NCBI GenBank assembly: GCA_023539395.1
Contig: JAKCEX010000001.1
Span: 85,193-131,437, forward strand
Reading direction: 5' to 3'
Length of the DNA: 46,245 nucleotides
Origin: Candidatus Geocrenenecus arthurdayi
Lineage (GTDB): Archaea; Thermoproteota; Nitrososphaeria_A; Caldarchaeales; Wolframiiraptoraceae
The translations under genes were made by a program, and so were the position numbers. This document shows positions 4,737 to 22,322 of the stretch, piece after piece (position 1 is the stretch's first letter; the number at the start of each line of letters is the position of its first letter). The notes under the pieces are model-generated. The model worked only from the letters and a program-made list of their open reading frames with translations. It was not told the origin of the DNA and ran no database searches.

Positions 4737-5375
4737 ATGTCCAAGACAAGTAGACGGGGGTTTCTCGGGGCCGTTTCAGCATTAGTTGTGTTGCCAGCGT
4801 TGTCAGCGGCCTCAGCCGTTGGGGAAAGTAAGCGTTACGCGATGTTAATAGATGTTGATAAGTGTTATGGTTGTATGGCCTGCGTGGTAGCTTGCGCAGC
4901 AGAGAACAATGTCCCACTTGGGAGCTTTAGGACGTGGGTTGAGCATCTAGTCAAGCCTGAAGGGATGAGAATCTTTATTCCTAAGCAGTGTAACCACTGC
5001 GATGACCCACCCTGTGTTCCACCTTGTCCAACAGGTGCTACATACAAAACACCTGATGGTCTCGTACTAGTCAATGATGAGCTCTGCATAGGCTGCGGAG
5101 CCTGTGTGAAGGCTTGCCCCTATGGAGCACGATACATCAACCCAGTGAAAGGCGTCGCAGATAAATGTACATTCTGCGACCACAGGCTTAAGGCTGGGCT
5201 ACTTCCAGCCTGCGTCGAAGCTTGTCCAACCAGCGCTCGAATATTCGGCCCTCTACACGAGGTTAATGAACTCTCCAAGACGATCAATAGCAGGCCAGTG
5301 CAGGTGCTGAAGCCACACACGGGGGCTAGGCCCCAGATATACTATATCTCCCTTCCCGATGAGGTGAACAGATGA
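4737..5375 (+). CDS. ttrB: Tat-exported Fe-S electron-transfer subunit, TtrB-like
   Basis: 212 residues, the four-cluster ferredoxin subunit of a complex iron-sulfur molybdoenzyme. It starts with a twin-arginine signal (SRRGFLG, residues 5-11, then a hydrophobic stretch to about residue 28), so it acts outside the membrane. Four [4Fe-4S] cysteine groups are visible: CYGCMACVVAC (C43-C53), CNHCDDPPCVPPC, CIGCGACVKAC, and CTFC followed by ACVEAC. The family (TtrB/PsrB/PhsB/DmsB) relays electrons from the membrane quinol subunit to the catalytic subunit. The next gene overlaps it by four bases (ATGA). The B-C-A order matches the bacterial ttrBCA operon, which favours a tetrathionate reductase assignment, but substrate cannot be proven from this subunit. 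Confidence 0.85.
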   Translation: MSKTSRRGFLGAVSALVVLPALSAASAVGESKRYAMLIDVDKCYGCMACVVACAAENNVPLGSFRTWVEHLVKPEGMRIFIPKQCNHCDDPPCVPPCPTGATYKTPDGLVLVNDELCIGCGACVKACPYGARYINPVKGVADKCTFCDHRLKAGLLPACVEACPTSARIFGPLHEVNELSKTINSRPVQVLKPHTGARPQIYYISLPDEVNR

Positions 5376-6481
5376 TGCTTGGATACTACTTCCCCAACGA
5401 GTTTGCTGAGCCTCTCCTCTGGCACCCTGTACTCTTTGCCTACTCACTGCTTGTCTCTGGAGCAGACCTCCTTATACTCGTTGCCCTTGCGTATCTTTCG
5501 AGAAGTTTGAGGAAGGCTATTCCACTGATGACGATGCTTGGCATAGGATTTTTCGCTGTAGTAATGGCAGGACCTCTAGCAGACCTCAGATCACCGCATA
5601 GGGCTCCCCTAATATTTACATTACCCCACATAGTCTCTACAGCCGCTAATCCAGGAATCTCGCTAATTGCCTTCCAGTCTATCATATGGCTCGTTGCGCT
5701 GGCATTATCAATTATATTCGCTCTACTTACCTTCTCCTACTATTCTTACCAGGCATCTCTGATGCATGCAGGCTTCAGGAAAAAGTTTTACCAAGTATTC
5801 TCCTTCGGGATAACGACGGCTGAGAGATACGGAGCTGTAGAGAAGGTCGCTAAGGTTGTCGCAGTTCTCATGCTCCCGTTCCTGACCCTCTGGGGTATCT
5901 ATCCAGCCTCGTTATTCATTATGCAGACATGGAACCCTGTTTGGAGAAGCTGGGTCCTCCTACCTATCGCATACTTCGCTGACACGTTTGTAGTTGCCAC
6001 GGCCTTATTCATGCTAGTTTACTTCTGCTGGAGATACAAGGCGCTAGAGCGTGACGTTGTTATTCCCGTGCTCAAGATACATGCAGCTGGCTCGTTATCT
6101 CTTGCGGCTTTAACAGGTCTACAAATGGCCGTTTGGTGGTTCTGGTCTTCTTCAATTGCTGAAATGGTTACACCACTCATACCGATAATGTACTTAGTCG
6201 TAGCTCTCCTGCTCCTCTCTTTCTTCCTCTCACTTATTGCGATGAGATACCCTGCAGCAATACTGGCTGTCTCCTTGGTAGCTATGGCAGGCACTTTCAC
6301 CAACAAGTGGAACATAATAATCAACGCCCAGCTAGTCTCTAAGACAGGGCTTGCATTCCTTGAGGCGGAGCTGGGAGGTTTATGGCCCCTAGAAACTGCC
6401 GCGCCCATCGCGTTGGGTGTAGCGGTCTTCATATTTCTCTCCATGCTCTTCCCACTAGAGGTGAGAGAAAGTGGTAAGTAG
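5372..6481 (+). CDS. ttrC: NrfD/PsrC/TtrC-type membrane anchor subunit
   Basis: 369 residues with about nine to ten hydrophobic segments, typical of the NrfD/PsrC family that oxidises quinol in the membrane and passes electrons to the Fe-S subunit. Segments include LLVSGADLLILVALAYL, IIWLVALALSIIFALLTF and VVALLLLSFFLSLIAM. It lacks the heme-ligating histidines expected of a cytochrome b anchor, consistent with a heme-free NrfD fold. It overlaps ttrB-like by four bases (ATGA) and ttrA-like by eleven, so the three genes are almost certainly co-transcribed and translationally coupled. The specific name rests on gene order and on its partner subunit. Confidence 0.8.
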   Translation: MMLGYYFPNEFAEPLLWHPVLFAYSLLVSGADLLILVALAYLSRSLRKAIPLMTMLGIGFFAVVMAGPLADLRSPHRAPLIFTLPHIVSTAANPGISLIAFQSIIWLVALALSIIFALLTFSYYSYQASLMHAGFRKKFYQVFSFGITTAERYGAVEKVAKVVAVLMLPFLTLWGIYPASLFIMQTWNPVWRSWVLLPIAYFADTFVVATALFMLVYFCWRYKALERDVVIPVLKIHAAGSLSLAALTGLQMAVWWFWSSSIAEMVTPLIPIMYLVVALLLLSFFLSLIAMRYPAAILAVSLVAMAGTFTNKWNIIINAQLVSKTGLAFLEAELGGLWPLETAAPIALGVAVFIFLSMLFPLEVRESGK

Positions 6482-9400
6482 AAGAACAGTAGTTAAGGGA
6501 GCTGTTGGCATTGCCTCACTAGGTGTCTTCCTCGCAGGATACTGGAGCGTGGTTGACAGGATAATCAAACCTACCACAACCCTCTACGGCCCCGACAGAG
6601 TAGCCGGACCTGGCGTAAGATACGTCTACTCGTCCTGCCTGGGCTGTAATGTTAGGTGTGGAATCAGGGTTAGGATAGCCTCATACAATGGAGTAGAGGT
6701 TGTTGAAAGGATAGAAGGCAATCCATATCATCCATACAATCGATGCGTCACATCAGACCGCCAGATGCATCGTTACAATCCACTCGACTACAAGACGCCC
6801 GCCCGCCAGTCACTACAAGTAAGCTCGACATTATGTCCACGCGGGCAGGACGGCATACATTACCTCTACGACCCCTATAGAATCATCAAGCCATTAAAGA
6901 GGGCTGGGCCGAGAGGCAGCGGGAAATGGAAGGAGATAAGCTGGGAGCAGCTCATCAGAGAAGTTGTGGAGGGAGGAGTCATCGAGGAAACGGGAGAGCG
7001 CCTCCCCGGCTTGAAAGAGATATTCGTATATGGCAGGCTAAGGGATGCAGGCTTCGAAAAACCTGGAGAAATACTATCGGCCATGAAGAAGGATGTTGAC
7101 GAGCTTTTAGCTAAAGCAGCAGATAAAAAAGTGACAGCTGAAGATTTTGAGGTCCTACTCAAGGACTTCAAGGAAAAGTGGAGCAAGACACTAGGCGAGA
7201 AGGGGCTTAAGCTCGAAGACGTTCTAGTGGACCCTGATAACCCTGACCTAGGTACAAAAGCTAACCAGCTCGTCTACATGCGTGGAAGAGGACAAGATAA
7301 CGCAGACGTCTTCACAAACCGTTTCATCACAGCTTTCGGCAGCGTAAACTGGCTCCGCCACACCTCCTCATGCCAGCTTTCATTCTATACAGGGAACTAC
7401 CTCTGGTCAGGATACTACGACATAAACCCAGATGCATTGAATGCGAAGGTCATTATTATGGCTGGAGCAGCCATGGGTAGAGTACACCCAGGAGCTACTG
7501 GGCAGGGTGCCCTAATTGAGAAAGCTGCAGAAAACGGCTTAAAGATATACTACGTTAATCCCTTATCACCGAGGACTACAAGTGGCGGAAACATCGTTTG
7601 GGTCCCAGTAAAGCCTGGAACTGACGCGGCCCTAGCAATAGCCATCGCGCAGATAATGATCAGGAATAACTGGTTTAACCGTGACTTCCTCAGGAGGCCG
7701 GGTAAAGCAGCTGCGGAGAAGATAGGCTACCCATACCATAGCAACGCTACATGGCTTGTCGTGATGGAAGAGGGTCATAAGCTCTACGGTAGCTACCTGA
7801 CAGATGCGATGGTCGGGCTTGGGACTGAGAACAAGCCACTCGTATATACGGGAGAAGGCTTCGCAGTAAACGATACTGTTGAAGAAGCAGAGCTAGAGTT
7901 CTCGGGCAAGGCACGACTTACGACGGGTGAGGAAGTTACTGTTAAGACAGCCTTCACAATCTACAAGGAGACAGTGTTCAGCAAAAGCATTGAAGAATGG
8001 GCCACCATCTGTGGAGTAAAGCCTGAAATAATACAGCAGATGGCGGAAGACTTTTGGGAGGCAGCTCCACGCGCAGCTACATACATACACAGAGGAGTAG
8101 CGATGCACCCCAATGGCGAGTACACAGTCTGGGCCTTACGAAGCCTCGATATCCTCATAGGAAACTTCCACAGAGCAGGCGGTCTTCTTGCAAGACCCTC
8201 AACAACCAGCTACAACGTTTACCTCTACAATTGCGGTGCCAGCGGGTTCGGTGAACCACCACGCTGGGGGCCAGCGATAGATAGACACAAGGCAGAGTAC
8301 GAGAAGACAATAATGTACTACAGAAAAGTGAAGAAGGGCGAGGACCCGTACCCTGCTAAGCGTCCATGGTACCCGCTTACACCAGAGGAGAGCTATACAG
8401 AGCTTTTCGCTGGAATAGACCTTGCCTATCCCTACCCGATTAAGGCGCTCATTCTATACTTCGCTAACCCTGTCCTCTCTGTTAATGGAGGAATAAGGTT
8501 CGCTGAAGTCTTGAAGGATACACGTAAGCTACCCCTCTTCATCGGCATAACCACAACAATAAACGAAACATACCTTTACGCAGACTACCTAGTCCCCGAC
8601 ACAACATATCTCGAAACAGGTACAAATGGAGTCCAGTTCTTGTATAGCTCCGGTATGGGAAGGTTACTGGCCGAGTCATGGAGGACTCCCGCAATAATGC
8701 CCCTTACACAGAGGATAAGTGACGCACCCGACGGTAATCCACGGTATGCCTCAATGTGGGAGTTCTTCATCGACATTGGTAAAGCCCTCGGAGCACCTGG
8801 ATATGGAGATAAAGCAATCCCCGGTGTGAAGGGTAAGAAGTATGAGGGTCAGTGGTTCCCACTCCATAGCTTCTGGGACTACATAATGAGAGTTTACGCA
8901 AATGGCGGTGTAGATGCTATGGATAAGGGGATTGTACCAAAGGAGATTCCAGAAGATGACTTGAGATTCGTTGAAGAAAACTACCCAATAGCACGATTCA
9001 AGAACGTGATAACAGTAGATGAATGGCGTGCTGCAGCTTACTGCCTGGCCCGAGGAGGCGTCTTCACAAAATATGAGGAATCCTTTGATGAAAAAGGGTT
9101 CTCTAAACGCAAGATTCCTGGAACAGGCATTCTTCTGCTCTGGAACGAAAAACTAGCTAAAACACCCAATAGCATAACAGGTAAGAAGTTCTGGGGAGGC
9201 CCAGCCTATTTCGAGCCTGCGACCTATGCTCCCATCGGGAAAGGCAGAGGACTAGGCTTCGCTGGCACCCCACTCCGAGAACTCTACCCACTCAAAGACT
9301 ACCCATACATACTCGTCTTCGAATCAGGTCCATTCTACACAAAACATCGAAGCTCTAACTACTACTTCATAAAGACAATCTTACCTGAAAACTTTGCCCT

Positions 9401-9917
9401 CATAAACAAAGCTGATGCAGAGTTGCTAGGCATAAAAACAGGCGATATCGTGCTGATCGAGAGCCCTATGGGCTCAGTAGAGGTTCCAGCCGTTGTGACA
9501 CCTGCAGTGGCGAGCGGCGTCATTGCTATACCTTACGGTATGGGTAGATGGGCAGAGACACTAGTTGTTAAGCCAGGCTACTTAAGCTTGAAGAAGGGTG
9601 GCGAGGCCCTAGCAGCACTACCTGACAAGGTCGAGATACCTGAGACAGCGGTTAACCCAGTCAAGCATCTACCAGACATAGTTAAGAAAACGCTCTTTAC
9701 GAATAGACCCGCTGACTACTTTGAGAAGGGTCTGGAGATAGATGCTTGGAGGTTCAATGGCGTCTCATCAAATCCCATCCAGCTTGTGGATGAATCACTG
9801 GGAGGATGGCCCGCTCAATCATGGATAGGTGCAAGCCAAGTATACTACAGCACCCCAGTCCGAATAACGAAGACGGGGAAAACTAGAAAGCTAATGCCAC
9901 ACCAGATCGTCTGGTGA
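6471..9917 (+). CDS. ttrA: Tat-exported molybdopterin oxidoreductase, tetrathionate reductase-like catalytic subunit
   Basis: 1148 residues. GTG start at 6471 with a strong GAGGTGA site at 6459-6465. The twin-arginine signal SRRTVVKG (residues 3-10) predicts an extracytoplasmic enzyme. The N-terminal [4Fe-4S] motif is C56xxC59xxxC63 with C122 (LCPRG). C301 in RHTSSCQLSFYTG is the likely molybdenum ligand. GNPYHP and the large insertion at about residues 170-260 suit the TtrA/ArrA/SrrA branch of the DMSO reductase family more than the shorter PhsA/PsrA enzymes. It would reduce tetrathionate or a related sulfur or metalloid oxyanion using quinol electrons from the B and C subunits. The exact substrate (tetrathionate, arsenate, selenate or sulfur) needs phylogeny or assay. 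GC content is clearly above the window background. Confidence 0.8.
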   Translation: MVSRRTVVKGAVGIASLGVFLAGYWSVVDRIIKPTTTLYGPDRVAGPGVRYVYSSCLGCNVRCGIRVRIASYNGVEVVERIEGNPYHPYNRCVTSDRQMHRYNPLDYKTPARQSLQVSSTLCPRGQDGIHYLYDPYRIIKPLKRAGPRGSGKWKEISWEQLIREVVEGGVIEETGERLPGLKEIFVYGRLRDAGFEKPGEILSAMKKDVDELLAKAADKKVTAEDFEVLLKDFKEKWSKTLGEKGLKLEDVLVDPDNPDLGTKANQLVYMRGRGQDNADVFTNRFITAFGSVNWLRHTSSCQLSFYTGNYLWSGYYDINPDALNAKVIIMAGAAMGRVHPGATGQGALIEKAAENGLKIYYVNPLSPRTTSGGNIVWVPVKPGTDAALAIAIAQIMIRNNWFNRDFLRRPGKAAAEKIGYPYHSNATWLVVMEEGHKLYGSYLTDAMVGLGTENKPLVYTGEGFAVNDTVEEAELEFSGKARLTTGEEVTVKTAFTIYKETVFSKSIEEWATICGVKPEIIQQMAEDFWEAAPRAATYIHRGVAMHPNGEYTVWALRSLDILIGNFHRAGGLLARPSTTSYNVYLYNCGASGFGEPPRWGPAIDRHKAEYEKTIMYYRKVKKGEDPYPAKRPWYPLTPEESYTELFAGIDLAYPYPIKALILYFANPVLSVNGGIRFAEVLKDTRKLPLFIGITTTINETYLYADYLVPDTTYLETGTNGVQFLYSSGMGRLLAESWRTPAIMPLTQRISDAPDGNPRYASMWEFFIDIGKALGAPGYGDKAIPGVKGKKYEGQWFPLHSFWDYIMRVYANGGVDAMDKGIVPKEIPEDDLRFVEENYPIARFKNVITVDEWRAAAYCLARGGVFTKYEESFDEKGFSKRKIPGTGILLLWNEKLAKTPNSITGKKFWGGPAYFEPATYAPIGKGRGLGFAGTPLRELYPLKDYPYILVFESGPFYTKHRSSNYYFIKTILPENFALINKADAELLGIKTGDIVLIESPMGSVEVPAVVTPAVASGVIAIPYGMGRWAETLVVKPGYLSLKKGGEALAALPDKVEIPETAVNPVKHLPDIVKKTLFTNRPADYFEKGLEIDAWRFNGVSSNPIQLVDESLGGWPAQSWIGASQVYYSTPVRITKTGKTRKLMPHQIVW

Positions 9918-9921
9918 GCTA

Positions 9922-10467
9922 TTGGCTGAGCTTAATTCTTTCGAGAGAGCAAGCCTCTACGTAGCTCTGCACGTATACTTCAACTGGCTTGCCAGTGGTG
10001 TGAGAGAACCGCCAGTAGAAGTCCTCAGCTTCTTTGAAAGCCTCGGGGTTAAGCTGCCATGGATAACCTCCAAGGAGACGGCTGAGTATATCAAGCGTTA
10101 TAGGGCTGGGATCTTTAGGACGGACCTAAACTCGGTAGCACGTGAATTCCTCAAAGACCACTTAACAGCCTTGTACAGAGCAGCTGGATACGTCTCGACA
10201 GAGCCTGCCGACAGCTTACTCGCTATGACGGCGTTCGCAGCACGCCTTGCAATAAATGCGTATCTATCACATATCCAGGGTGATGGAAGCACTGAAAAGC
10301 TTGAACAACAGCTCCACCGATTCATAAAAACGCACCTTATACCAGCCCTTGAACATGTGAAACCTCCTGAAAAAATATTTTCAAATGCTGTTAAGAAGTT
10401 GACACAGATTATCAAAGATGATGCAGGGCTACTTGCTAAACGGCTCAGCCATCAAACATCTCTTTGA
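9922..10467 (+). CDS. TorD/DmsD-family molybdoenzyme maturation chaperone
   Basis: 181 residues, nearly all alpha-helical, lying four bases after the catalytic subunit on the same strand. The TTG start at 9922 has GGTGAG at 9913-9918. TorD-family proteins bind the Tat signal and apo-form of DMSO-reductase-family enzymes until the cofactor is inserted. Length, helical character, and segments such as EFLKDHLTALYRAAGY and HLIPALEHVKPP (compare the family's helix ending in a HL-P-W-type stretch) support this. Position immediately behind ttrA-like is the strongest argument. It belongs to the same GC-rich island, and the composition returns to AT-rich just after its stop. Confidence 0.75.
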   Translation: MAELNSFERASLYVALHVYFNWLASGVREPPVEVLSFFESLGVKLPWITSKETAEYIKRYRAGIFRTDLNSVAREFLKDHLTALYRAAGYVSTEPADSLLAMTAFAARLAINAYLSHIQGDGSTEKLEQQLHRFIKTHLIPALEHVKPPEKIFSNAVKKLTQIIKDDAGLLAKRLSHQTSL

Positions 10468-10673: not shown

Positions 10674-11909
10674 TCATCTAACCTCAGCAGTTATCTCTTC
10701 CAAAGTGGAGATTAGGTAATCTATCTCTTCTCTAACATTGTAGAGGTATATGCTTGCTCTAACTGTTCCATCTATTTTTAATCTCTGGTGGAGAGGATGT
10801 GCGCAGTGTTTTCCTGTTCTCACAGCTATCCCATAGCTATCGAGTAGGCTTCCGACTATATTCGACTCTAATCCTCTGATATTGAATGTGATTATTCCTC
10901 CACGTACTGATACATTCTTCGGACCGTATACCGTAATAGAGTCTCCTAGGTTGTCTAGGTTTCTCAAAGCATAGCCAGTTAATTCTTCTTCATGCATTCT
11001 TACATTACCCATTCCTATCTTCTGTAGATATTCTACTGCTGCTGCAAGCCCTATTACTCCAGCTATATTTGGTGTTCCAGCTTCAAAGCTATGTGGTGGA
11101 TCAAGAAGCATGAAATCATTTAGAGTTACTTCTCTAATCGCTCCTCCACCTAGCCTAAATGGAGGTAAATCATCTAGTAAGTCATGTTTAACCCATAACA
11201 CACCTATACCCGTAGGTCCAAGCATCTTATGACCACTAAATGCTAGGAAGTCTATCTCAAGTTCTCTAACGTTTATAGGCATATGTGGAACGGATTGTGC
11301 TCCATCAACCGCTATAACCCCTCCAACTTCATGTATCTTCTTGGCGATTCTTCTTACATCAACTATCGTTCCAAGAACATTAGACATATGTGCGATTGAA
11401 ACAATCTTAGTTTTGTCATTTATCTTCTCATCCAATCTTTCGTAATCTATTAATCCTTCATCAGTGATATCTAGATATCTTATTTTTGCTCCTGTTATAG
11501 AAGAAATACGCATCCAAGGGAGGATATTACTATGATGCTCCATAACTGTTAAAAGTATCTCATCTCCAGGCTTCAAGACCTTCAAACCATAACTATAAGC
11601 AAGCATATTGAGTGAATCAGTTGTACCATAAGTAAAGATTACTTCTTCAGGACTGTTAGCGTTTATGAATCTAGCAATTTTCTCTCTAGCTTCTTCATAT
11701 CTTGATGTAGCTAGCTGGCTGAGATAGTGGATCCCTCGATGGATATTACTATACTCGCTTAGATAGAAATCCCTGATTGCTTCAACGACTTGAATAGGCT
11801 TAAGAGATGAAGCTGCGCTATCAAGATAAACTAAACGTTTACCTCTTATCTTTCTTTCCAAGATTGGAAAATCTCTACGCGTTTCTTCAAGATTAGTACA
11901 CGACATCAT
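10674..11909 (-). CDS. sufS: Cysteine desulfurase SufS
   Basis: 411 residues, a PLP enzyme that removes sulfur from cysteine as an enzyme-bound persulfide. Class II (SufS/CsdA) features are seen: LVYLDSAASSLKP near the N-terminus, the PLP lysine in FSGHKMLGP, the cofactor-contacting HHSN motif (MEHHSNILPW) and the catalytic Cys in RTGKHCAHP. Starts are adjacent ATG codons at 11909 and 11906. A TATA-like sequence at about 11929-11937 on the minus strand sits roughly 26 nt upstream, so the message is probably leaderless. No sufBCD genes lie next to it. It faces the ttr island tail to tail and precedes the iscS operon on the same strand, giving two desulfurases of different classes within 3.5 kb. 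Confidence 0.93.
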   Translation of the reverse strand: MMSCTNLEETRRDFPILERKIRGKRLVYLDSAASSLKPIQVVEAIRDFYLSEYSNIHRGIHYLSQLATSRYEEAREKIARFINANSPEEVIFTYGTTDSLNMLAYSYGLKVLKPGDEILLTVMEHHSNILPWMRISSITGAKIRYLDITDEGLIDYERLDEKINDKTKIVSIAHMSNVLGTIVDVRRIAKKIHEVGGVIAVDGAQSVPHMPINVRELEIDFLAFSGHKMLGPTGIGVLWVKHDLLDDLPPFRLGGGAIREVTLNDFMLLDPPHSFEAGTPNIAGVIGLAAAVEYLQKIGMGNVRMHEEELTGYALRNLDNLGDSITVYGPKNVSVRGGIITFNIRGLESNIVGSLLDSYGIAVRTGKHCAHPLHQRLKIDGTVRASIYLYNVREEIDYLISTLEEITAEVR

Positions 11910-12009
11910 CCTAATATAGCATCACCAGAAATATAAGAACTTCTCAGAAACTCTCTTCCTAGTATCTTTCGACAAGATCACGGGAAGATTAAGAGAAACC
12001 TATTTTACA

Positions 12010-12249
12010 CTACTTAGAGTAAATGACCGTTACTTTTACTCCATTCTTCTCTATTACTTGAAATTTTAAGTCTCTCTTAATTGCTAGCATCTCAAGTACT
12101 TTTAATGGTACTTCCCTCTCGTCTGAAGTTACCTTCAATACTCCTCTTCCTTCTTCTACTCTTGAGAGTAGTTGTGTAAGTCTAATAACAGGGTTTTCAG
12201 TACATCCAGGCTTCTTCTCCCTAAGATCTATAAAATACTCATCCATCAT
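12010..12249 (-). CDS. TusA-like sulfur-carrier protein with altered Cys motif
   Basis: 79 residues with the TusA/SirA-like pattern: YFIDLREKKPGCTENPVIRL, then an amphipathic helix, a strand (GVLKVTSDE) and a C-terminal helix-strand pair. TusA proteins carry a persulfide on the Cys of a CPxP motif; here the motif reads CTENP, so the Cys is kept but the first Pro is missing and spacing to the second is longer by one. The gene overlaps the end of iscU by four bases (ATGA), so it is the third gene of iscS-iscU-tusA-like. That position suits a carrier that accepts sulfur from the desulfurase. Assignment is by pattern, not by full similarity. Confidence 0.6.
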   Translation of the reverse strand: MMDEYFIDLREKKPGCTENPVIRLTQLLSRVEEGRGVLKVTSDEREVPLKVLEMLAIKRDLKFQVIEKNGVKVTVIYSK

Positions 12250-12743
12250 GGTACTACGCCATACTTTCTATAGATCCTCTCAATTAACTCTTCTTCTTCT
12301 AGAGCTTGCCTTTCTTCTTTACTCAGATCTTTAGGAAGCCAATCAGGATGCATCTTCACGATTTCTTGGAAGTATTTTCTAATAGCTCTTTTTAATCCTC
12401 CAACTGCTAAAATACTACAATGATACTTTATTGATGGTAGCCCTCCAAGCTCATTTGTTACATCTTCCCAAGTTATATCCCATGCCTCTTTTAGAGTCTT
12501 GCCTTTCACCATCTCAGTAATAATACTCGCAGCTGCAATATTAGCTGCACACCCATAACTCTCAAAAGAAGCATCGATTATTCTACTATCCTCAATTTTC
12601 AAATAGATTGTAATTACGTCTCCGCAAGCTGGGCTTCCAGCTTGGGATGAGACAGTCGCATCCTCCATCTTACCTAGATTCTTGGGATTCCTGAAGAGAT
12701 CTAAGATCTTCGGTGTATAGATGAGGGGGGTTCTAGTGCTCAT
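12246..12743 (-). CDS. iscU: Fe-S cluster scaffold protein IscU/NifU-N type
   Basis: 165 residues. The conserved cluster ligands of IscU are all visible: C40 and D42 in GSPACGDVITI, C65 in YGCAANIAA, and H108-C109 in KYHCSILAVGG. The protein assembles [2Fe-2S] or [4Fe-4S] clusters from desulfurase-derived sulfur. It overlaps both neighbours by four bases (ATGA at 12740-12743 with iscS, and at 12246-12249 with the tusA-like gene), so it is translationally coupled to its sulfur donor. The C-terminal 35 residues (DWLPKDLSKEERQALEEEEL and on) extend beyond the usual IscU core and look helical and acidic. Confidence 0.93.
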   Translation of the reverse strand: MSTRTPLIYTPKILDLFRNPKNLGKMEDATVSSQAGSPACGDVITIYLKIEDSRIIDASFESYGCAANIAAASIITEMVKGKTLKEAWDITWEDVTNELGGLPSIKYHCSILAVGGLKRAIRKYFQEIVKMHPDWLPKDLSKEERQALEEEELIERIYRKYGVVP

Positions 12744-13987
12744 ACTTCCACCACCTTCTTTACAGCTTCTCTACTCTCTCTCGCTAATGGACTTATTATT
12801 CTAAGCCTCTCAATTGCAGGAGGAACCTGAGATAAGACATACTCTATATCTTCTTTATTATGGTATCTGGATACTTTGAAGAGTATGCTTCCATGGGCTT
12901 CTTCATATCTTCTACCTATGGCCAATATTACATGGCTAGGTTCTAGAACACGGCTTGTACAAGCACTTCCACTTGAGACATAGACTCCTCTCAGACTTAA
13001 CTCAACCGTTATAGATTCTCCCTCAACATGTAGGAAGCTTATATTCACATTATCTGGAGCTCTTTTATCTCCTCTTGGACCATTCAGCAATACTTCTGGA
13101 ACATTATTTAATATTCCATCCATTAGCATATCTCTAAGCATCTTCATCTTCTTAACGTTGTCATCAAAATTTGTGAAAGTTAAGTCTATTGCTTTATTGA
13201 ATCCAGCTATTGCAGGGATGTTCTCTACCCCTGGCCACATCTTCTGCGTACTGAGTGCACCATGCATTATGGGTTTCAATCTTACCCCCTCCCTCACGTA
13301 TAATACTCCTACCCCTCTGGGACCATGAATCTTATGGCTGCTAAGTGTCATCAAGTCTACTCCTAATTCTTCTACATCTATCTTTATCCTACCATAAGCA
13401 TCAACAGCATCTGTATGGAAGATGATTCTATCATCTTTATCTTTTACAGTTTCTACTAGCGTCTTTATGTTTTGTATTGTTCCTATCTCATGATTAACCA
13501 TCTGGATGCTTACCATTAATGTTTCATAGTCAATTAACATACTTAACATATCTGGGTCTACAAATCCTTCTTTATCTACTGGGATTGTAACAACCCTGTA
13601 ACCATATTCTTCAAGAGACCTAGCGGGGAAAAGAATACTTACATGCTCAATTGCAGATGTTATAATCTTTCTTCTTTCCCTGCCACTTCCAAGAGCTGTA
13701 CCTATGATTGCAAGATTGTTTGCTTCAGTTCCATTATGGGTTATGACTAATTCTCCTCCCCTAGCATTAATAGTTTTATTTACTTTCTCTAATGTAGACT
13801 CAACAACTTCATATGCTTCCCATCCAGGTAGATTGGTTATAGATGGATGCCCATACCCTCTCTGGTTAAAGTATGGTAGCATTGCCTCAACAACTTCAGG
13901 TGGAACCCATCCAGAATTTTCATGGTCTAAGTAGACTTCTCTAGACGGCTTACCATGCTGTTTCAAAAACTCTGAAACCTTTACCAT
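12740..13987 (-). CDS. iscS: Cysteine desulfurase IscS/NifS type
   Basis: 415 residues, first gene of the iscS-iscU-tusA-like operon. Motifs: YLDHENSGWVPPEVV at the N-terminus (the family usually has a YLDNAATTP-type stretch), PLP lysine in SSHKIHGPRGVG, and the catalytic Cys in SSGSACTSR on the mobile loop. It supplies sulfur for Fe-S assembly and possibly for tRNA thiolation through the TusA-like partner. ATG at 13987 is preceded on the minus strand by TATA-like sequence around 14014-14024. Clear class I desulfurase, so it complements rather than duplicates SufS. Confidence 0.92.
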   Translation of the reverse strand: MVKVSEFLKQHGKPSREVYLDHENSGWVPPEVVEAMLPYFNQRGYGHPSITNLPGWEAYEVVESTLEKVNKTINARGGELVITHNGTEANNLAIIGTALGSGRERRKIITSAIEHVSILFPARSLEEYGYRVVTIPVDKEGFVDPDMLSMLIDYETLMVSIQMVNHEIGTIQNIKTLVETVKDKDDRIIFHTDAVDAYGRIKIDVEELGVDLMTLSSHKIHGPRGVGVLYVREGVRLKPIMHGALSTQKMWPGVENIPAIAGFNKAIDLTFTNFDDNVKKMKMLRDMLMDGILNNVPEVLLNGPRGDKRAPDNVNISFLHVEGESITVELSLRGVYVSSGSACTSRVLEPSHVILAIGRRYEEAHGSILFKVSRYHNKEDIEYVLSQVPPAIERLRIISPLARESREAVKKVVEV

Positions 13988-16728: not shown

Positions 16729-16980
16729 CTATTTTTTGATTATAATCTTCCATAATGCTTCTTCTAAGCGTTCTAGATTTAATACTTGGCTCCCTCTTCT
16801 AACTACAGCTTCTTTAATCGTTTCACATGAAGGCTGATTATCAAATATTACTTCTAATATTTCCCCACGCTGCATTCTGTCGAGTGTTTTAACTGTGTAT
16901 AGGACAGGATAGGGGCATGGTAATCCAAGAATCTTCAACATGTATCTTCCCGGTTCAACTTCAGACAACTCCACCGTCAT
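16729..16980 (-). CDS. tusA: Sulfur carrier protein TusA
   Basis: 83 residues from the ATG at 16980, which overlaps the end of the sulfite reductase by 20 bases; a longer in-frame extension inside that gene is unlikely. The TusA core is clear: YMLKILGLPCPYPVLYTVKT with the canonical CPxP site whose Cys carries a persulfide, followed by the strand EILEVIFDNQPSCETI. TusA transfers sulfane sulfur between desulfurases, rhodaneses and acceptor pathways; in sulfur-metabolising archaea it also carries sulfur in dissimilation. Coupling to a siroheme sulfite reductase suggests a carrier for the sulfur entering or leaving that enzyme. Confidence 0.88.
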   Translation of the reverse strand: MTVELSEVEPGRYMLKILGLPCPYPVLYTVKTLDRMQRGEILEVIFDNQPSCETIKEAVVRRGSQVLNLERLEEALWKIIIKK

Positions 16981-18445
16981 AAGTATATCTACCCCTAAGC
17001 AATTCTTCAGCAAATTCATTGAAGCTTTCATAGCCGCTATTGATAAACGTCTTAATGATATCTCTAACTACTTCGTTGACGAGATCTTGGGGGACATTCT
17101 TGAGTAGAAGCTGGGATAGCTTACTACTTCTTCCTCTAACATAAATGTTGAAACATGGTATACTCTGCCCATTTTTCCTAACTACTACATTTTGTAGCCC
17201 TATATCAGCGATAATGTGCTGAGCACAACCATTTGGACAACCGCTGATAGCGATCCATATCTTTAGTTTCTTAAATTGTTCTCCTAGCTCCTCTTCAAGA
17301 TAGTCCATCAAGCTGTATGCATTGTCTTTGCTACTTTTAATAGCTTTACCACAGAAATTGCTGGGGCATGCTCTTACCATATATTTGATGGGTGGCTGGT
17401 CGGGGTCTAGGTTTATTTTCTTCAATTTTAATCTGACTTTATCTAATTCTCCTTCTGGAATATGGGGAATTATAAGTTTCTGTGAAGGTGATACTCTGAC
17501 TTCATTACTATATTGCTCAGATATGCTGATTATTTCCTTAAATTGGTAGACGCTCAGTAACCCTGTAAATGTAGGCACAGTCAGAGAATAAAGTCCATGA
17601 TTTTTCTCACGGAGTATAGTATCATGGTCTCTCCAGCTGATATTCAAACATTTGCTGTTGAATATTTGAAATGATTTATTCATGTATTCTTCTATCAATT
17701 CTCTTATTTTCTCAGTTCCCAATTCTTTAACAAGCCATTTAAATCTAGATATACTTTTCCTTTCTCTAAATCCATGCTGATTATAGATTTCTATAACAGC
17801 TTTGATGAATTTTAGTGTATCATTTAGTGGAATGAAGATATTTAGTGGCTCTGCAAGGATAGGTGGATAACCTAAGCTTCCTCCAATGAAGGGCGTGAAA
17901 CCTAGCTCATGACCTTTTTTAACAGCTATTAATGCAAGATCATTTACTTCTGGTCTAATACAATTATTTGGACATGAGGTAATCCCTATCTTGAATTTTC
18001 TAGGTAGGTTGAGATATTCTTTTTTCCCAGTAAAGAATTGTACTGTCTCTCTGACTATTGTATATGTCTCAAATAATTCTCCATCAAGGATTCCTGTGAA
18101 TGGACATGTAGTTATATTTCTAACATCACCATATCCTGCTCTTGGATAGTGTTGCCCACACATATCTGTGTAGAGTCCTACTCCTTCAAGTTTTTCAAAG
18201 ATTTTGATAGAATCTTCGTCTCTAATCCAGTGGAGCTGTATGTCATGTCTCGTCGTAACTTCTAGATAGCCTCTCCCATATTTTTCTGATATTTCTGCAA
18301 TTACTTTTGCCTGCTCTATCGTTAACACTCCTCCTACTACTTTTATGCGGAGGAAATGGTTAGAACCTTGCCCGGACTCGTGACCTAAAGCATACCTGCC
18401 TACGAATCTGTCTATTTCAGATAGCTGGATATGTAGATTCGACAC
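16961..18445 (-). CDS. Siroheme/[4Fe-4S] sulfite reductase (assimilatory nitrite/sulfite reductase family)
   Basis: 494 residues with two pseudo-repeats of the ferredoxin-like half domain. The siroheme-[4Fe-4S] ligands are seen near the C-terminus as VRACPSNFCGKAI and SGCPNGCAQH. An RNITTCPFTG motif and a second TSCPNNC site lie in the first half. It catalyses six-electron reduction of sulfite to sulfide (or nitrite to ammonia). Fusion to neither DsrB nor a flavoprotein is present, so it is not the heterodimeric DsrAB type. Its position between tusA and a cysteine-synthase-like gene favours sulfite. The GTG at 18445 lies about 27 nt from the centre of a minus-strand TATA box, so the transcript is probably leaderless. 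Confidence 0.85.
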   Translation of the reverse strand: MSNLHIQLSEIDRFVGRYALGHESGQGSNHFLRIKVVGGVLTIEQAKVIAEISEKYGRGYLEVTTRHDIQLHWIRDEDSIKIFEKLEGVGLYTDMCGQHYPRAGYGDVRNITTCPFTGILDGELFETYTIVRETVQFFTGKKEYLNLPRKFKIGITSCPNNCIRPEVNDLALIAVKKGHELGFTPFIGGSLGYPPILAEPLNIFIPLNDTLKFIKAVIEIYNQHGFRERKSISRFKWLVKELGTEKIRELIEEYMNKSFQIFNSKCLNISWRDHDTILREKNHGLYSLTVPTFTGLLSVYQFKEIISISEQYSNEVRVSPSQKLIIPHIPEGELDKVRLKLKKINLDPDQPPIKYMVRACPSNFCGKAIKSSKDNAYSLMDYLEEELGEQFKKLKIWIAISGCPNGCAQHIIADIGLQNVVVRKNGQSIPCFNIYVRGRSSKLSQLLLKNVPQDLVNEVVRDIIKTFINSGYESFNEFAEELLRGRYTYDGGVV

Positions 18446-18455
18446 CCCCTTTGCC

Positions 18456-18478
18456 TGTTATAACACCGTTATATAAAC
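18456..18478 (-). promoter_or_regulatory. Sulfite reductase promoter with palindromic operator candidate
   Basis: On the minus strand GTTTATATAAC (18468-18478) is a TATA-like box at the expected distance from the GTG at 18445. Between it and the start lies a perfect 10-bp palindrome TGTTATAACA (18456-18465), well placed for a repressor that blocks initiation. The divergent cysteine-synthase-like gene starts about 80 bases away, so the same site could influence both. Confidence 0.45.
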
Positions 18479-18547
18479 CTATCCCAACTACGTAGAGAAT
18501 TGAAGAAAATAAACAAATAATTGTAGTAGATTGGGACAATTGGATTG

Positions 18548-19684
18548 ATGGGTTCAAGATTGCTTATAGAGAATATCCTTGAATGCTTAAGAAAAGACTA
18601 CTTAAAACCTACTGGTAGCAGGATTATTGATTTAGATGATTTTTCAATTATCGTAAAACTAGAGTATCCAATAGACTTCTTGAATGACCCATTGAGGACT
18701 ATAAAGAGGAAGCCTGCAACCCTGTTATTTGAAGATACTTATAACAAGGGCTGGATAAAACCTGGTAGGACTATAATTACTGCTTCTTCGGGAAACTTTC
18801 TAAGAGAGCTTGCTCTAATAGCTTTAAATCATGGATTCAAGGTGATAGGTGTTACACCTCCGAGGATTCCTTCTGAGAACTTGAAAATCTTGACAGCTCT
18901 CGGTGTTGATATTCTCCATATTACAGAAGAATATGATCTATGTCCTAGAGAAACAACAGTATTCTATACGAGGAGCTTAGCAGAGAAGTACAGATTCAAC
19001 CTAGTGAATATAGACCAGTATAATAGTTGGCAGAATGTCATGGCACATCTATACCTGACTTGGGAAGAAATTAAAGAGCTTGGAGAAATAGATTATGCAT
19101 GTATACCTTTAGGTAGCACTGGGACGTTTATCGGAATCTCTACAGGATGTAGTCTCGAAAAATGGAAGATGAAGATTATAGGAGTCCAGCCAACAAGATT
19201 CCACCATATACCTGGAGTCCACCATATTGTTGGAGAATGTGAATGGAGTCCAGAAATATTCTCTTCTCTAATCAGTAGAGAGATAGTAACAATTGATGAT
19301 GTTGATGCATATGCGGGATTAGTAATGTTATGGAAGAATGGGATACCAGCTGGTCCTTCAACAGGTATGACCTTCATCCAAGCAGTAAAGCTAGCTAAAC
19401 AGGTAAAAGAAGGAAGCATCCTAACAATATCTGCAGATAGCATATTCGCGTATAGAGATTATGTGTTAGATTACATGAAAGAGATAATAGACCAGATAAT
19501 TACTAGGTATCCAGAGATCGAAGAGGACTGTTTAAGATACATTGAATGGTTAAGAAAGCTTCCATCAATCGATGAGAGATTGGAGCTGGTTAAGAGAATA
19601 TATAGGACGTCGGGAGTAGCAGGCAGAGTCTTCAAGTACGATAATGAAGAAGAACTACTTAAGCAGATCCAAGTATCAACTTAA
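18548..19684 (+). CDS. Divergent cysteine-synthase-like PLP enzyme (tryptophan synthase beta superfamily)
   Basis: 378 residues from ATG 18548 (TTG 18545 also possible). The fold-type II PLP pattern can be followed but is altered at several places: DPLRTIKRKPATLLFE stands where cysteine synthases have an SVKDRPA-type lysine motif; SSGNFLREL replaces the TSGNTG substrate loop; GSTGTFIG matches the glycine-rich phosphate loop; AGPSTGMTF is the C-terminal serine motif. About 60 residues form a C-terminal helical extension. It would act on O-acetylserine, O-phosphoserine or a related substrate. It is divergent from sulfite reductase and upstream of thrC, which suits a last step of sulfur assimilation. 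Substrate is uncertain because the substrate loop differs. Confidence 0.75.
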   Translation: MGSRLLIENILECLRKDYLKPTGSRIIDLDDFSIIVKLEYPIDFLNDPLRTIKRKPATLLFEDTYNKGWIKPGRTIITASSGNFLRELALIALNHGFKVIGVTPPRIPSENLKILTALGVDILHITEEYDLCPRETTVFYTRSLAEKYRFNLVNIDQYNSWQNVMAHLYLTWEEIKELGEIDYACIPLGSTGTFIGISTGCSLEKWKMKIIGVQPTRFHHIPGVHHIVGECEWSPEIFSSLISREIVTIDDVDAYAGLVMLWKNGIPAGPSTGMTFIQAVKLAKQVKEGSILTISADSIFAYRDYVLDYMKEIIDQIITRYPEIEEDCLRYIEWLRKLPSIDERLELVKRIYRTSGVAGRVFKYDNEEELLKQIQVST

Positions 19685-19763
19685 GAATGAGGAGTAAGAT
19701 AAGACTTATAAAGAAGCATCTCTCCTAGGGAGAATCAGGAGGGTAGGAGAACTATCGGAGAAG

Positions 19764-20990
19764 ATATACTTAAAATGTAGAGACTGTGGAAAAGAATATC
19801 CTCCAGTTCTCCAATATGTATGTCCAAGCTGCTTCGGTGCACTAGACGTAGAATACGTAGGTTTAGAAAATATAAAGATAGACGTCGGAGAATTGTCAAC
19901 TAGGAGGAAGGATATCTGGAGATATATTGAGCTCCTACCAATAATAGACCCAGAAAATATTGTATCTCTAGGAGCAGGGTATACTGAGCTAATTACTTCT
20001 ACTAGACTATCTAAGAAGCTAGGTTTAAGAAAACTCTACTTAAAAGAAGACTTCACTAATCCAACTCATTCATTTAAAGATAGAGCTGCAAGTGTAGCTG
20101 TTTCTAAAGCTCTAGAATTTAGATTGAATGCTGTTGGATGTGCATCAACTGGAAATCTTGCAGCGGCTACCTCAGCTCACGCTGCTAGAGCTGGTCTTCC
20201 ATGCTATATCTTTGTTCCGAAGGGTGTAGAGAAAGAGAAGCTCTCTCATGCATTATCTTATGGAGCTAGATTAGTAGTTATTGATGGAACATATGATGAA
20301 GCAAACTGGTTAGCAGCTAGATTCGCTGAAGAATATAATATCGGTATTGTGAATGTGAATATTAGACCATATTATGTTGAAGGATCAAAAACACTTGCAT
20401 ACGAAATATGTGAACAGCTAGGTTGGAGAACTCCTGACCACATAATCATTCCCATGGCTAGTGGAGCATTACTAAACGCAGTAGATAAAGGATTAAGAGA
20501 ATTAAAAACGATAGGATTAATCGATGGAGAAGTAAGAATCTCTGGGGTTCAACCTGAAGGATGCTCACCCATAGTTTCAGCATACCGTGAGAATAGAGAA
20601 TTCATTAAGCCAGTTCGAGAGATCAATACAATAGCGTTTAGCCTTGCAATAGGTAATCCAGGAGATGGAGTATATGCTCTAAGAACAATAAAAAGAACAA
20701 GAGGAGCAGCCATCGCAGTTAGTGATAGAGATGTTCTTGAAGCTATTAGAGATCTTGCACAGATGGAAGGATTGTTTGTTGAGCCTGGAGCAGCTGTAAC
20801 AGTAGCTGGGCTTAAGAAGATGATTGAAGAAGGATTAGTAGATAGAGATGAAGAGGTTGTCTGCCTCCTCACAGGCTCTGGATTGAAAACTCCAACTATT
20901 ATTGAAGAATACAGTGCCCAGCCTATTACTCTTAAGCCCTCTTCTATTAGTGAATTATCTAAGATATTAGGAGTTGAGAGTATTGCCTAG
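19764..20990 (+). CDS. thrC: Threonine synthase with N-terminal zinc ribbon and no canonical start codon
   Basis: PLP enzyme converting O-phosphohomoserine to threonine. The PLP lysine lies in NPTHSFKDRAA, with STGNLAAATSAHAA and MASGALL loops. The reading frame upstream of the first in-frame TTG (19893) continues without stops to 19698 and encodes LKCRDCGKEYP and YVCPSCFGALDVEY, the zinc ribbon usual in archaeal threonine synthases. No ATG, GTG or TTG occurs in that part. The feature is drawn from ATA 19764 (downstream of GGAG), which yields a normal N-terminus; a TTG 19893 start would lose the ribbon. It overlaps the sulfur-carrier gene that follows. A related role, such as a thiocarboxylate-using cysteine synthase, cannot be excluded. 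Confidence 0.85.
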   Translation: MYLKCRDCGKEYPPVLQYVCPSCFGALDVEYVGLENIKIDVGELSTRRKDIWRYIELLPIIDPENIVSLGAGYTELITSTRLSKKLGLRKLYLKEDFTNPTHSFKDRAASVAVSKALEFRLNAVGCASTGNLAAATSAHAARAGLPCYIFVPKGVEKEKLSHALSYGARLVVIDGTYDEANWLAARFAEEYNIGIVNVNIRPYYVEGSKTLAYEICEQLGWRTPDHIIIPMASGALLNAVDKGLRELKTIGLIDGEVRISGVQPEGCSPIVSAYRENREFIKPVREINTIAFSLAIGNPGDGVYALRTIKRTRGAAIAVSDRDVLEAIRDLAQMEGLFVEPGAAVTVAGLKKMIEEGLVDRDEEVVCLLTGSGLKTPTIIEEYSAQPITLKPSSISELSKILGVESIA

Positions 20991-21255
20991 AGTTAAGCTT
21001 ATTCTCCCATCAGTTTTAGCAGAAGGCAGAGAGCGGGTAAGAGAGCTTGAAGCTTCTACACTTAAAGACATCGTTGATTATCTATGCAAGATGAAGCCTC
21101 AGTTAAAAGACCGTATAATCTCCCCTGATGGAGAATTAAATAGGTTCTTCAATTTCTACGTAAATGGTGTTAACGCATATTTATTAAATGGGGTTAAAAC
21201 ATTATTGAAAGATGGAGATGAAGTCTCAGTCATACCTGCTATTGGAGGAGGATGA
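20983..21255 (+). CDS. MoaD/ThiS-type ubiquitin-like sulfur carrier
   Basis: 90 residues ending in AIGGG, the exposed C-terminal di-glycine tail that is adenylated and thiocarboxylated in this family. The body has the beta-grasp pattern: VKLILPSVLAEG, STLKDIVDYLCK, FNFYVNGVNAYLLNG and LKDGDEVSVIPAIGGG. TTG 20983 is preferred because GGAG at 20970-20973 is then correctly spaced; TTG 20974 would add three residues. Its start overlaps the end of thrC, and its stop overlaps the start of the E1-like gene (ATGA). It may serve molybdopterin synthase, tRNA thiolation (SAMP-like) or an amino-acid pathway. Confidence 0.88.
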   Translation: MPRVKLILPSVLAEGRERVRELEASTLKDIVDYLCKMKPQLKDRIISPDGELNRFFNFYVNGVNAYLLNGVKTLLKDGDEVSVIPAIGGG

Positions 21256-22322
21256 ACATGGAAAGGAAGACTATTACAGATGATGAATTCGAATTATACT
21301 CTAGGCAGATCGTACTGAATATTATTGGTTTTGAAGGTCAAGAGAAGCTCAAAAATTCCAGGGTAGCTATCGTTGGATTAGGTGGATTAGGGTCACCAAT
21401 AGCAGTGACATTAACAGCTATGGGTGTAGGATACATTCGGATAATCGATAGAGACATAGTAGAGAAATCTAACTTACATAGACAGCATCTATACACTTTT
21501 AAAGACATAGGTTACCCAAAAGTCGAGGTAGCTTCAAGAAGATTAAGAGAAATGAATCCCTACATCGAGATCGACCCATACCCAGTATACATTAATGATT
21601 CAACTGCATTAGAAGCCATTAAAGAAGTAGATGTAGTATTGGATGGGCTTGATAATTTTAAAGCAAGAAGAGCTATCAATAAAGCATGCTACAAGCTATC
21701 TATACCATACGTATATGCTTCAGCGATAGAAACATACGGCATGGTTTCTACTCTAATCCCTGGAGAAGGACCATGTCTCGAATGCATATTCCCAAATACT
21801 TCTGACCAGAATCTACCTACATGTTCTACCGTAGGTGTACATCCATCAATATTACAAGTAATATCAAGTATCGAAGTTTACGAAGCAGTCAATCTATTAA
21901 CTAAGAGGAAACCACGACTCTTCGGAAAACTATTAATATACGATTTAGAAGAATTGTCCAGCAACCTGCTTGAAGTTAAGAAATCAGTCAACTGCCCAAT
22001 ATGTGGAGGGGGAAAGATTATAGAAGAAGAAAAAATTGAATATCCAGAAATTGAGGAAGTATGTTCTAGAGAAGGTAAAATTACCTACATAATTAATCCA
22101 GGGCAAGTAATACCAGTTGAGATTAAGAGCTTATCTCAGAAACTGTATAGTGAAGGATACGAAGTATCTAGAACTAGTGATTTCAGCTTAACATTTAAAG
22201 TTGATGGTAACGGCACCTTCAGCTTACTGAAGACAGGCATAGGAATAGTAGAAGGTTTAAGTTCTAAGGAATACGCTCTCAAGATCTATGAATTGATATT
22301 AAGGAAAATTTTGAACCACTAG
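21252..22322 (+). CDS. moeB: MoeB/ThiF-type E1-like activating enzyme with extra C-terminal domain
   Basis: 356 residues. It adenylates the C-terminal glycine of MoaD/ThiS-type carriers. Motifs: YSRQIVLNIIG, the nucleotide-binding VAIVGLGGLGSPIA, IDRDIVEKSNLHRQHLY, and DGLDNFKARRAINKAC. Zinc Cys pairs are CLECIFP and NCPICGGG, and the TCSTVGVHP motif holds a likely catalytic Cys. From about residue 265 a 90-residue extension follows which is not the rhodanese domain found in some MoeB proteins; GKITYIINPGQVIPVEIKSL resembles a short beta-rich carrier-like module but is unassigned. GGAGGAGG before the ATG at 21252 overlaps the end of the carrier gene, so the pair is translationally coupled. 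Confidence 0.87.
   Translation: MNMERKTITDDEFELYSRQIVLNIIGFEGQEKLKNSRVAIVGLGGLGSPIAVTLTAMGVGYIRIIDRDIVEKSNLHRQHLYTFKDIGYPKVEVASRRLREMNPYIEIDPYPVYINDSTALEAIKEVDVVLDGLDNFKARRAINKACYKLSIPYVYASAIETYGMVSTLIPGEGPCLECIFPNTSDQNLPTCSTVGVHPSILQVISSIEVYEAVNLLTKRKPRLFGKLLIYDLEELSSNLLEVKKSVNCPICGGGKIIEEEKIEYPEIEEVCSREGKITYIINPGQVIPVEIKSLSQKLYSEGYEVSRTSDFSLTFKVDGNGTFSLLKTGIGIVEGLSSKEYALKIYELILRKILNH

Follow-up and report, generated by a model that had tools for sequence, protein, structure and literature searches.

Two systems that build sulfur amino acids from a protein thiocarboxylate are the closest precedents for the locus described here: the cysteine-forming CysO-CysM-Mec system of Mycobacterium tuberculosis, which operates with MoeZ, and the HcyS-HcyD-HcyF system of Wolinella, which serves methionine synthesis together with MetY. 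A third precedent is operon class 4e of Iyer, Burroughs and Aravind (2006), found in organisms including Pyrobaculum, which unites ThiS/MoaD, JAB, E1, SirA, sulfite reductase and O-acetylhomoserine sulfhydrylase (PMC1779556). Beyond these, at least one further homocysteine pathway has been said to await discovery in autotrophs without the traditional, DUF39 or thiocarboxylate routes (Price et al. 2018; PMC5764234). Here we describe a six-gene cluster from the hot-spring archaeon Candidatus Geocrenenecus arthurdayi, located in a stretch of 46,245 nucleotides (contig JAKCEX010000001.1 of GCA_023539395.1; henceforth the window), in which a pyridoxal phosphate (PLP) enzyme derived from threonine synthase (ThrC), termed ThrC-A, is coupled to a ubiquitin-like protein (Ubl) and an E1 enzyme. 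The system is a new variant of the CysO/HcyS-type systems. We give an about even chance to the reading that it is a sulfur-assimilation module working on a protein thiocarboxylate, in which ThrC-A would make homocysteine and a CysM-like enzyme would make cysteine. The cluster comprises:

16729-17031, minus strand: TusA-family persulfide carrier (Pfam TusA 2e-17; CPxP motif, CPYP)
16961-18445, minus strand: siroheme/4Fe-4S nitrite/sulfite reductase (Pfam NIR_SIR 3e-53)
18545-19684, plus strand: divergent CysM/SbnA/CBS-like PLP enzyme (PALP 1.3e-31; likely start ATG 18548)
19698-20990, plus strand: ThrC-A, a ThrC-like PLP enzyme with an N-terminal zinc ribbon (listed open reading frame from TTG 19893; homologous frame from 19698)
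20974-21255, plus strand: CysO-like Ubl sulfur carrier with the tail IGGG (likely start TTG 20983)
21252-22322, plus strand: MoeB/ThiF/UbaA-type E1 (ThiF domain; two CxxC pairs; conserved TCS; C-terminal extension)

The open reading frames and domain matches bear out the initial annotation, which had placed six genes of a sulfur-assimilation locus at these positions. The translational coupling it reported for thrC, moaD and moeB is genuine: the 3' end of thrC is overlapped by the Ubl frame, while the Ubl stop and the E1 start codon overlap as ATGA. Its sulfite reductase does belong to the nitrite/sulfite reductase family, but the top NCBIfam model is ferredoxin-nitrite reductase, with a score under the cut-off, and the probable assimilatory role on sulfite is drawn from context. 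Upstream, the thrC frame stays open to about 19698 and there encodes a CxxC...CxxC zinc ribbon kept in relatives, so that translation probably does not begin at the listed TTG (19893). No in-frame ATG, GTG or TTG occurs across this upstream stretch (window 19698-19893); an ATA at 19764 would yield the N-terminus found in relatives.

The cluster resembles the M. tuberculosis system in its small GG-ending CysO-like carrier, E1, fold-type-II PLP partner and genome-encoded Mec-like JAMM protein (PMC3227635). It differs in that the carrier-coupled PLP enzyme derives from ThrC and not from CysM, in the location of the JAMM gene outside the cluster, in the probable product, homocysteine, and in the E1, which, unlike MoeZ, shows no rhodanese domain but only a ThiF domain and an unannotated C-terminal extension, with sulfite reductase and TusA encoded alongside. 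With the Wolinella system it shares the proposed product and the use of a carrier thiocarboxylate; however, ThrC-A is of fold type II and belongs to a family unrelated to MetY, which is a fold-type-I PLP enzyme. As in class 4e, for which sulfur assimilation was predicted, a carrier, a rhodanese-free E1, SirA/TusA and sulfite reductase occur together, but there is no JAB in the cluster, and ThrC-A and the CysM-like enzyme replace the sulfhydrylase (PMC1779556). A word search of that study finds no mention of ThrC, and searches of open-license papers turned up no earlier description of an archaeal ThrC with MoaD or of a homocysteine route in ammonia oxidizers.

Searches of 300 genomes, and of 44 genomes from the order of the source organism (drafts, some of them incomplete), delineate ThrC-A as a clade of ThrC proteins at no less than 49% identity, as against 36-47% for the others; it is monophyletic (support 100/100) and stands apart from the true-ThrC clade. 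We aligned 35 ThrC-A and 14 true ThrC sequences with solved threonine synthases, using the numbering of the Thermus thermophilus (Tth) enzyme with K61 confirmed by count. Eighteen columns are at least 90% conserved within each group yet different between the two. The changes in ThrC-A include T88L, S155N, N157R together with a one-residue insert, R160Y, Q164S, N188S and G190A, and its GCSP motif has an added C. Six of these positions, T88, S155, N157, R160, Q164 and N188, are replaced in 35/35 ThrC-A and retained in 14/14 true ThrC, whereas the PLP lysine (Tth K61) is kept in the SFKDR motif of all the ThrC-A variants shown. Several of the replaced positions line the substrate-phosphate pocket in the Tth complex (1v7c).

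These replacements bear on the possibility, which we consider distinctly unlikely, that ThrC-A is an ordinary threonine synthase sharing an operon with Ubl and E1 by history, or being tagged by them in the manner of SAMP-type regulation. ThrC-A scores 294 against the TIGR00260 cut-off of 167, it retains the PLP lysine, and its AlphaFold 2 model (pLDDT 91) has the threonine synthase fold; moreover, molybdopterin synthase is reported to be regulated by SAMP1 conjugation in Haloferax (PMC4443979). Yet each of the 35 ThrC-A sequences has substitutions at positions that do not vary in true ThrC and that fall in the substrate loop, and a true-type ThrC coexists with it. ThrC-A further differs from threonine synthase in its coupling to a Ubl. 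The source genome encodes three ThrC homologs, namely ThrC-A, the true-type enzyme (contig C10, L104) and a third on contig C68 (L114), and in the ammonia oxidizers, too, a second ThrC exceeds the TIGR00260 cut-off. Because of these separate enzymes ThrC-A would not be needed for threonine, and its candidacy as sole threonine synthase is rejected. The initial annotation had set its proposal against the case of a plain threonine synthase; the substitutions speak against ThrC-A being one. As a separate observation, the third homolog (L114, 2848-4449) lacks the PLP lysine and bears a C-terminal extension resembling a PadR-type winged helix; in this and the ThrC-like proteins of L115-L117, which share the extension, the lysine is changed to T or L, and they are possibly ligand-sensing transcription regulators.

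A GG-ending Ubl is encoded directly downstream of ThrC-A, on the same strand, in 40 loci from 14 families (30 from the 300-genome search plus those of G003, G089, G144, G192, G200, G219, G227, G218, G032 and G299), usually overlapping it or lying within about 60 bp, whereas no Ubl follows the other ThrC genes (0/14 loci). The survey of the thrC-moaD-moeB neighborhood that had been proposed thus shows a widely kept linkage, one family (f2) excepted. The label MoaD, in contrast, did not hold for the carrier: the best matches of its profile are M. tuberculosis CysO (3dwg_C, 1.8e-20) and 4n6e_B (3.1e-20), as against 4.3e-8 for MoaD 1vjk, with SAMP1 homologs and MoaD far weaker than CysO, and it scores 39.9 bits against the moaD_arch cut-off of 49.5. 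In ammonia oxidizers and a few other organisms the Ubl is fused to the E1 with the GG at the junction. In the ammonia-oxidizer fusions of L118-L121, L072 and L073 the internal GG is followed by S; to provide a free thiocarboxylate, these would have to be cleaved or work by another mechanism. In family f3 two residues often come after the GG of the Ubl.

The resemblance to CysO, and the genomic setting of molybdopterin genes, also make it improbable that Ubl and E1 serve molybdopterin synthesis or tRNA thiolation with only an incidental link to ThrC. A Ubl-E1 pair of T. kodakarensis (TK2118-TK2117) does serve the tungsten cofactor and another Ubl of that organism tRNA thiolation (PMC11323500), and the window encodes a molybdopterin oxidoreductase. 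However, the MoaE gene of the source genome (contig C53) overlaps its own dedicated MoaD (L129), the sequence of the Ubl is remote from that of MoaD, and MoaE is absent from 12/12 genomes tested of family f7, nine of which have ThrC-A. Furthermore, the linkage to ThrC-A is kept across 14 families, and the f7 E1 is lost along with ThrC-A: 38 of 43 f7 genomes have both ThrC-A and an E1 match and five have neither, implying that the E1 has no other indispensable partner there. The Ubl as the molybdopterin MoaD is rejected as unlikely, given its likeness to CysO, the separate MoaD-MoaE pair and the f7 genomes without MoaE; the latter two likewise leave unsupported the suggestion of the initial annotation that MoaD is shared between molybdopterin and amino acid synthesis.

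Within the order, ThrC-A and a cystathionine gamma-synthase (CGS) family gene are mutually replaceable. HcyBio (PF01837) is absent from the members of the order tested, and the source genome (G000; a 1.53 Mb draft, 94% complete) has no full-length match to PF01053 (MetY-type). Full-length PF01053 genes occur in 13/44 genomes of the order, those of G064 and G128 matching PRK08574 of the CGS family. Among the 29 genomes that are at least 90% complete, 19 have ThrC-A without CGS, three have both, seven have CGS without ThrC-A and none lacks both (p = 8e-5, relatedness uncorrected); across all 44 genomes the p value is 0.001, and the five with neither gene are all less than 90% complete. Two genera show complete swaps, and a further two have patterns that are compatible. 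Within the genus of the source organism, the CGS gene of G064 lies between tsaD and sufS, and nifS is directly followed by the gene that flanks the far side of the module elsewhere, the module itself being cleanly absent. In the window the module is present and the tsaD-sufS slot is occupied by a molybdopterin oxidoreductase operon with no CGS; G152 similarly has the module and no CGS in this slot, and G128 carries both. ThrC-A tracks the absence of CGS, which tells against an ordinary threonine synthase, and SAMP-type regulation does not predict such a swap.

We infer every chemical step of the favored thiocarboxylate route, including Ubl thiocarboxylate as donor and activated homoserine as acceptor, as well as both products, on the model of M. 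tuberculosis CysO-CysM-Mec (as summarized in PMC3227635). The reductase would yield sulfide, and TusA and/or the adjoining cysteine desulfurases would hand sulfur on. The E1 would adenylate the C-terminal glycine of the CysO-like Ubl, the acyl-adenylate then being converted to the thiocarboxylate. ThrC-A, as a fold-type-II enzyme of threonine synthase descent, would form an electrophilic PLP intermediate from activated homoserine and take sulfur from the Ubl thiocarboxylate, giving homocysteine as a Ubl adduct, which a Mec-like JAMM encoded elsewhere in the genome may release. The CysM-like enzyme would carry out the matching beta-replacement to give cysteine. Threonine synthase is the fold-type-II enzyme known for gamma chemistry; on this ground, and because ThrC-A tracks the absence of homocysteine synthases, homocysteine is preferred over cysteine as its product. 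The initial annotation had suggested that a PLP enzyme here could use carrier-bound sulfide: the context of a CysO-like carrier, an E1 and a genomic Mec-like JAMM favors this, while the sulfur transfer is our deduction. The idea is mostly right, and the interpretation as a whole is partly supported.

The choice of product separates this reading from the likeliest of its three rivals, which is followed in falling likelihood by SAMP-type regulation and by molybdopterin or tRNA thiolation. Here ThrC-A would be a Ubl-thiocarboxylate-dependent cysteine synthase, a CysM analog recruited from the ThrC family, which we regard as unlikely. The Ubl is closest to CysO, most ThrC-A carry SFKDRPA, which is similar to the lysine motif of CysM, and the CGS-family gene of sister species could be a cysteine-making gamma-lyase; but the nearest kin of ThrC-A are threonine synthases, and cysteine is already covered by the CysM-like enzyme of the window and by CysK/M homologs in the ammonia oxidizers, whereas homocysteine is not.

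The ammonia oxidizers, which are among the most abundant archaea, extend the homocysteine reading beyond the order. AmoA marks families f7, f41 and f45 as ammonia oxidizers (20/20 genomes tested). Neither full-length PF01053 nor HcyBio occurs in the 15 ammonia oxidizers tested for both, and most of those tested carry ThrC-A with a fused Ubl-E1. In 80 chosen genomes ThrC-A is associated with lack of CGS or HcyBio (26/14/11/29, p = 0.0015, relatedness uncorrected). We tentatively propose, at somewhat less than an even chance, that ThrC-A and its CysO-like carrier together form a homocysteine synthase not described before, and the missing step in ammonia-oxidizing and related hot-spring archaea. 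If so, genes that are as a matter of routine labeled threonine synthase, MoaD and MoeB would constitute a sulfur amino acid pathway, the third amino acid system based on a protein thiocarboxylate and one with a new PLP scaffold, and Ubls would be tied to primary metabolism in archaea.

The JAMM component has a looser connection. None lies at the locus, as the initial annotation had noted, but the check it proposed elsewhere finds three PF14464 (JAMM) proteins in the source genome, one of them Mec-like and encoded beside ilvE (contig C27, 7843-8178). In a sister genus (L127) ilvE is followed in turn by one cupin-like and one small gene, a CysK/CysM homolog and a JAMM 47% identical to that of the source genome, which suggests that the genus of the source organism lost the standard cysM beside ilvE and kept the JAMM. 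A cysM-JAMM-Ubl operon is also present in the same order (G017; L126, 2834-4758). The Ubl of this operon has about 90 residues past the GG and would need cleavage.

Several observations weigh against ThrC-A as a homocysteine synthase of this kind. JAMM does not track ThrC-A, being missing in family f10 genomes with ThrC-A and present in genomes without it, and it was accordingly dropped as a pathway marker; the f10 genomes imply that product release is possible without JAMM or by another protease. No Ubl adjoins ThrC-A in family f2 (0/4 loci), one genome of which has the above cysM-JAMM-Ubl operon elsewhere. Five ammonia oxidizers lack ThrC-A, and in the three of these that were tested the known homocysteine synthases are missing as well. 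Many genomes from outside the order have ThrC-A and HcyBio together. The CGS-family gene may instead encode a cystathionine gamma-lyase, in which case the pattern would speak for cysteine. Finally, activated homoserine as substrate is uncertain, since the replaced residues include those binding the phosphate of O-phosphohomoserine.

The CysM-like enzyme is predicted to be cysteine-forming. Its family is sharply bounded, with members in 10/300 Thermoproteota genomes at E < 1e-67 and the next best match at 2e-26; a protein 79% identical is found in the Nitrososphaerales archaeon KUA_Bin06. It shows the lysine motif DPLRTIKRKPA and an invariant YDLCPRE, and it scores 119 against the cysM cut-off of 394. 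Sequence and fold searches of the PDB gave no specific function but only CBS, SbnA and CysM relatives, and the AlphaFold 2 model resembles CBS, SbnA and M. tuberculosis CysM.

The block is not a chance assembly, since three further species of the genus keep the order TusA-reductase-CysM-like-ThrC-Ubl-E1 (L034, L035, L036) and pieces of the module recur jointly in other families at 40-57% identity (L037-L042, L133). Family f10 has these genes, at about 33-55% identity, in the new grouping thrC-Ubl-E1-reductase-TusA, and the CysM-like gene is not far off (L039, L040). In family f4 the genes near the thrC-Ubl-E1 trio include nifS, nifU and one that is TusA-like (L133). In family f20 the reductase, TusA and CysM-like genes have as neighbors a small membrane protein gene and one for a YeiH-like transporter (L038).

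Adjoining the module in the window is a further set of sulfur genes, syntenic in relatives, which may possibly supply it with sulfur:

10674-13987, minus strand: sufS, a small gene (p79), nifU/iscU and nifS/iscS

Across the genus these sulfur genes move blockwise: nifS-nifU-sufS stay joined, and the TusA-to-E1 block lies next to them, sits at another place or is missing (L034, L123, L124, L125). The gene between sufS and nifU (12010-12249) encodes a conserved 79-aa protein without a Pfam match and with a single cysteine. The molybdopterin oxidoreductase operon (4737-10467) encodes a 4Fe-4S protein, a membrane subunit, a large subunit and a small helical protein. In two other families (L038, 5157-8690; L039, 6123-8013), the genes for the YeiH-like transporter and the small membrane protein accompany those for the reductase, TusA and the CysM-like enzyme, with a possible role in sulfur oxyanion transport.

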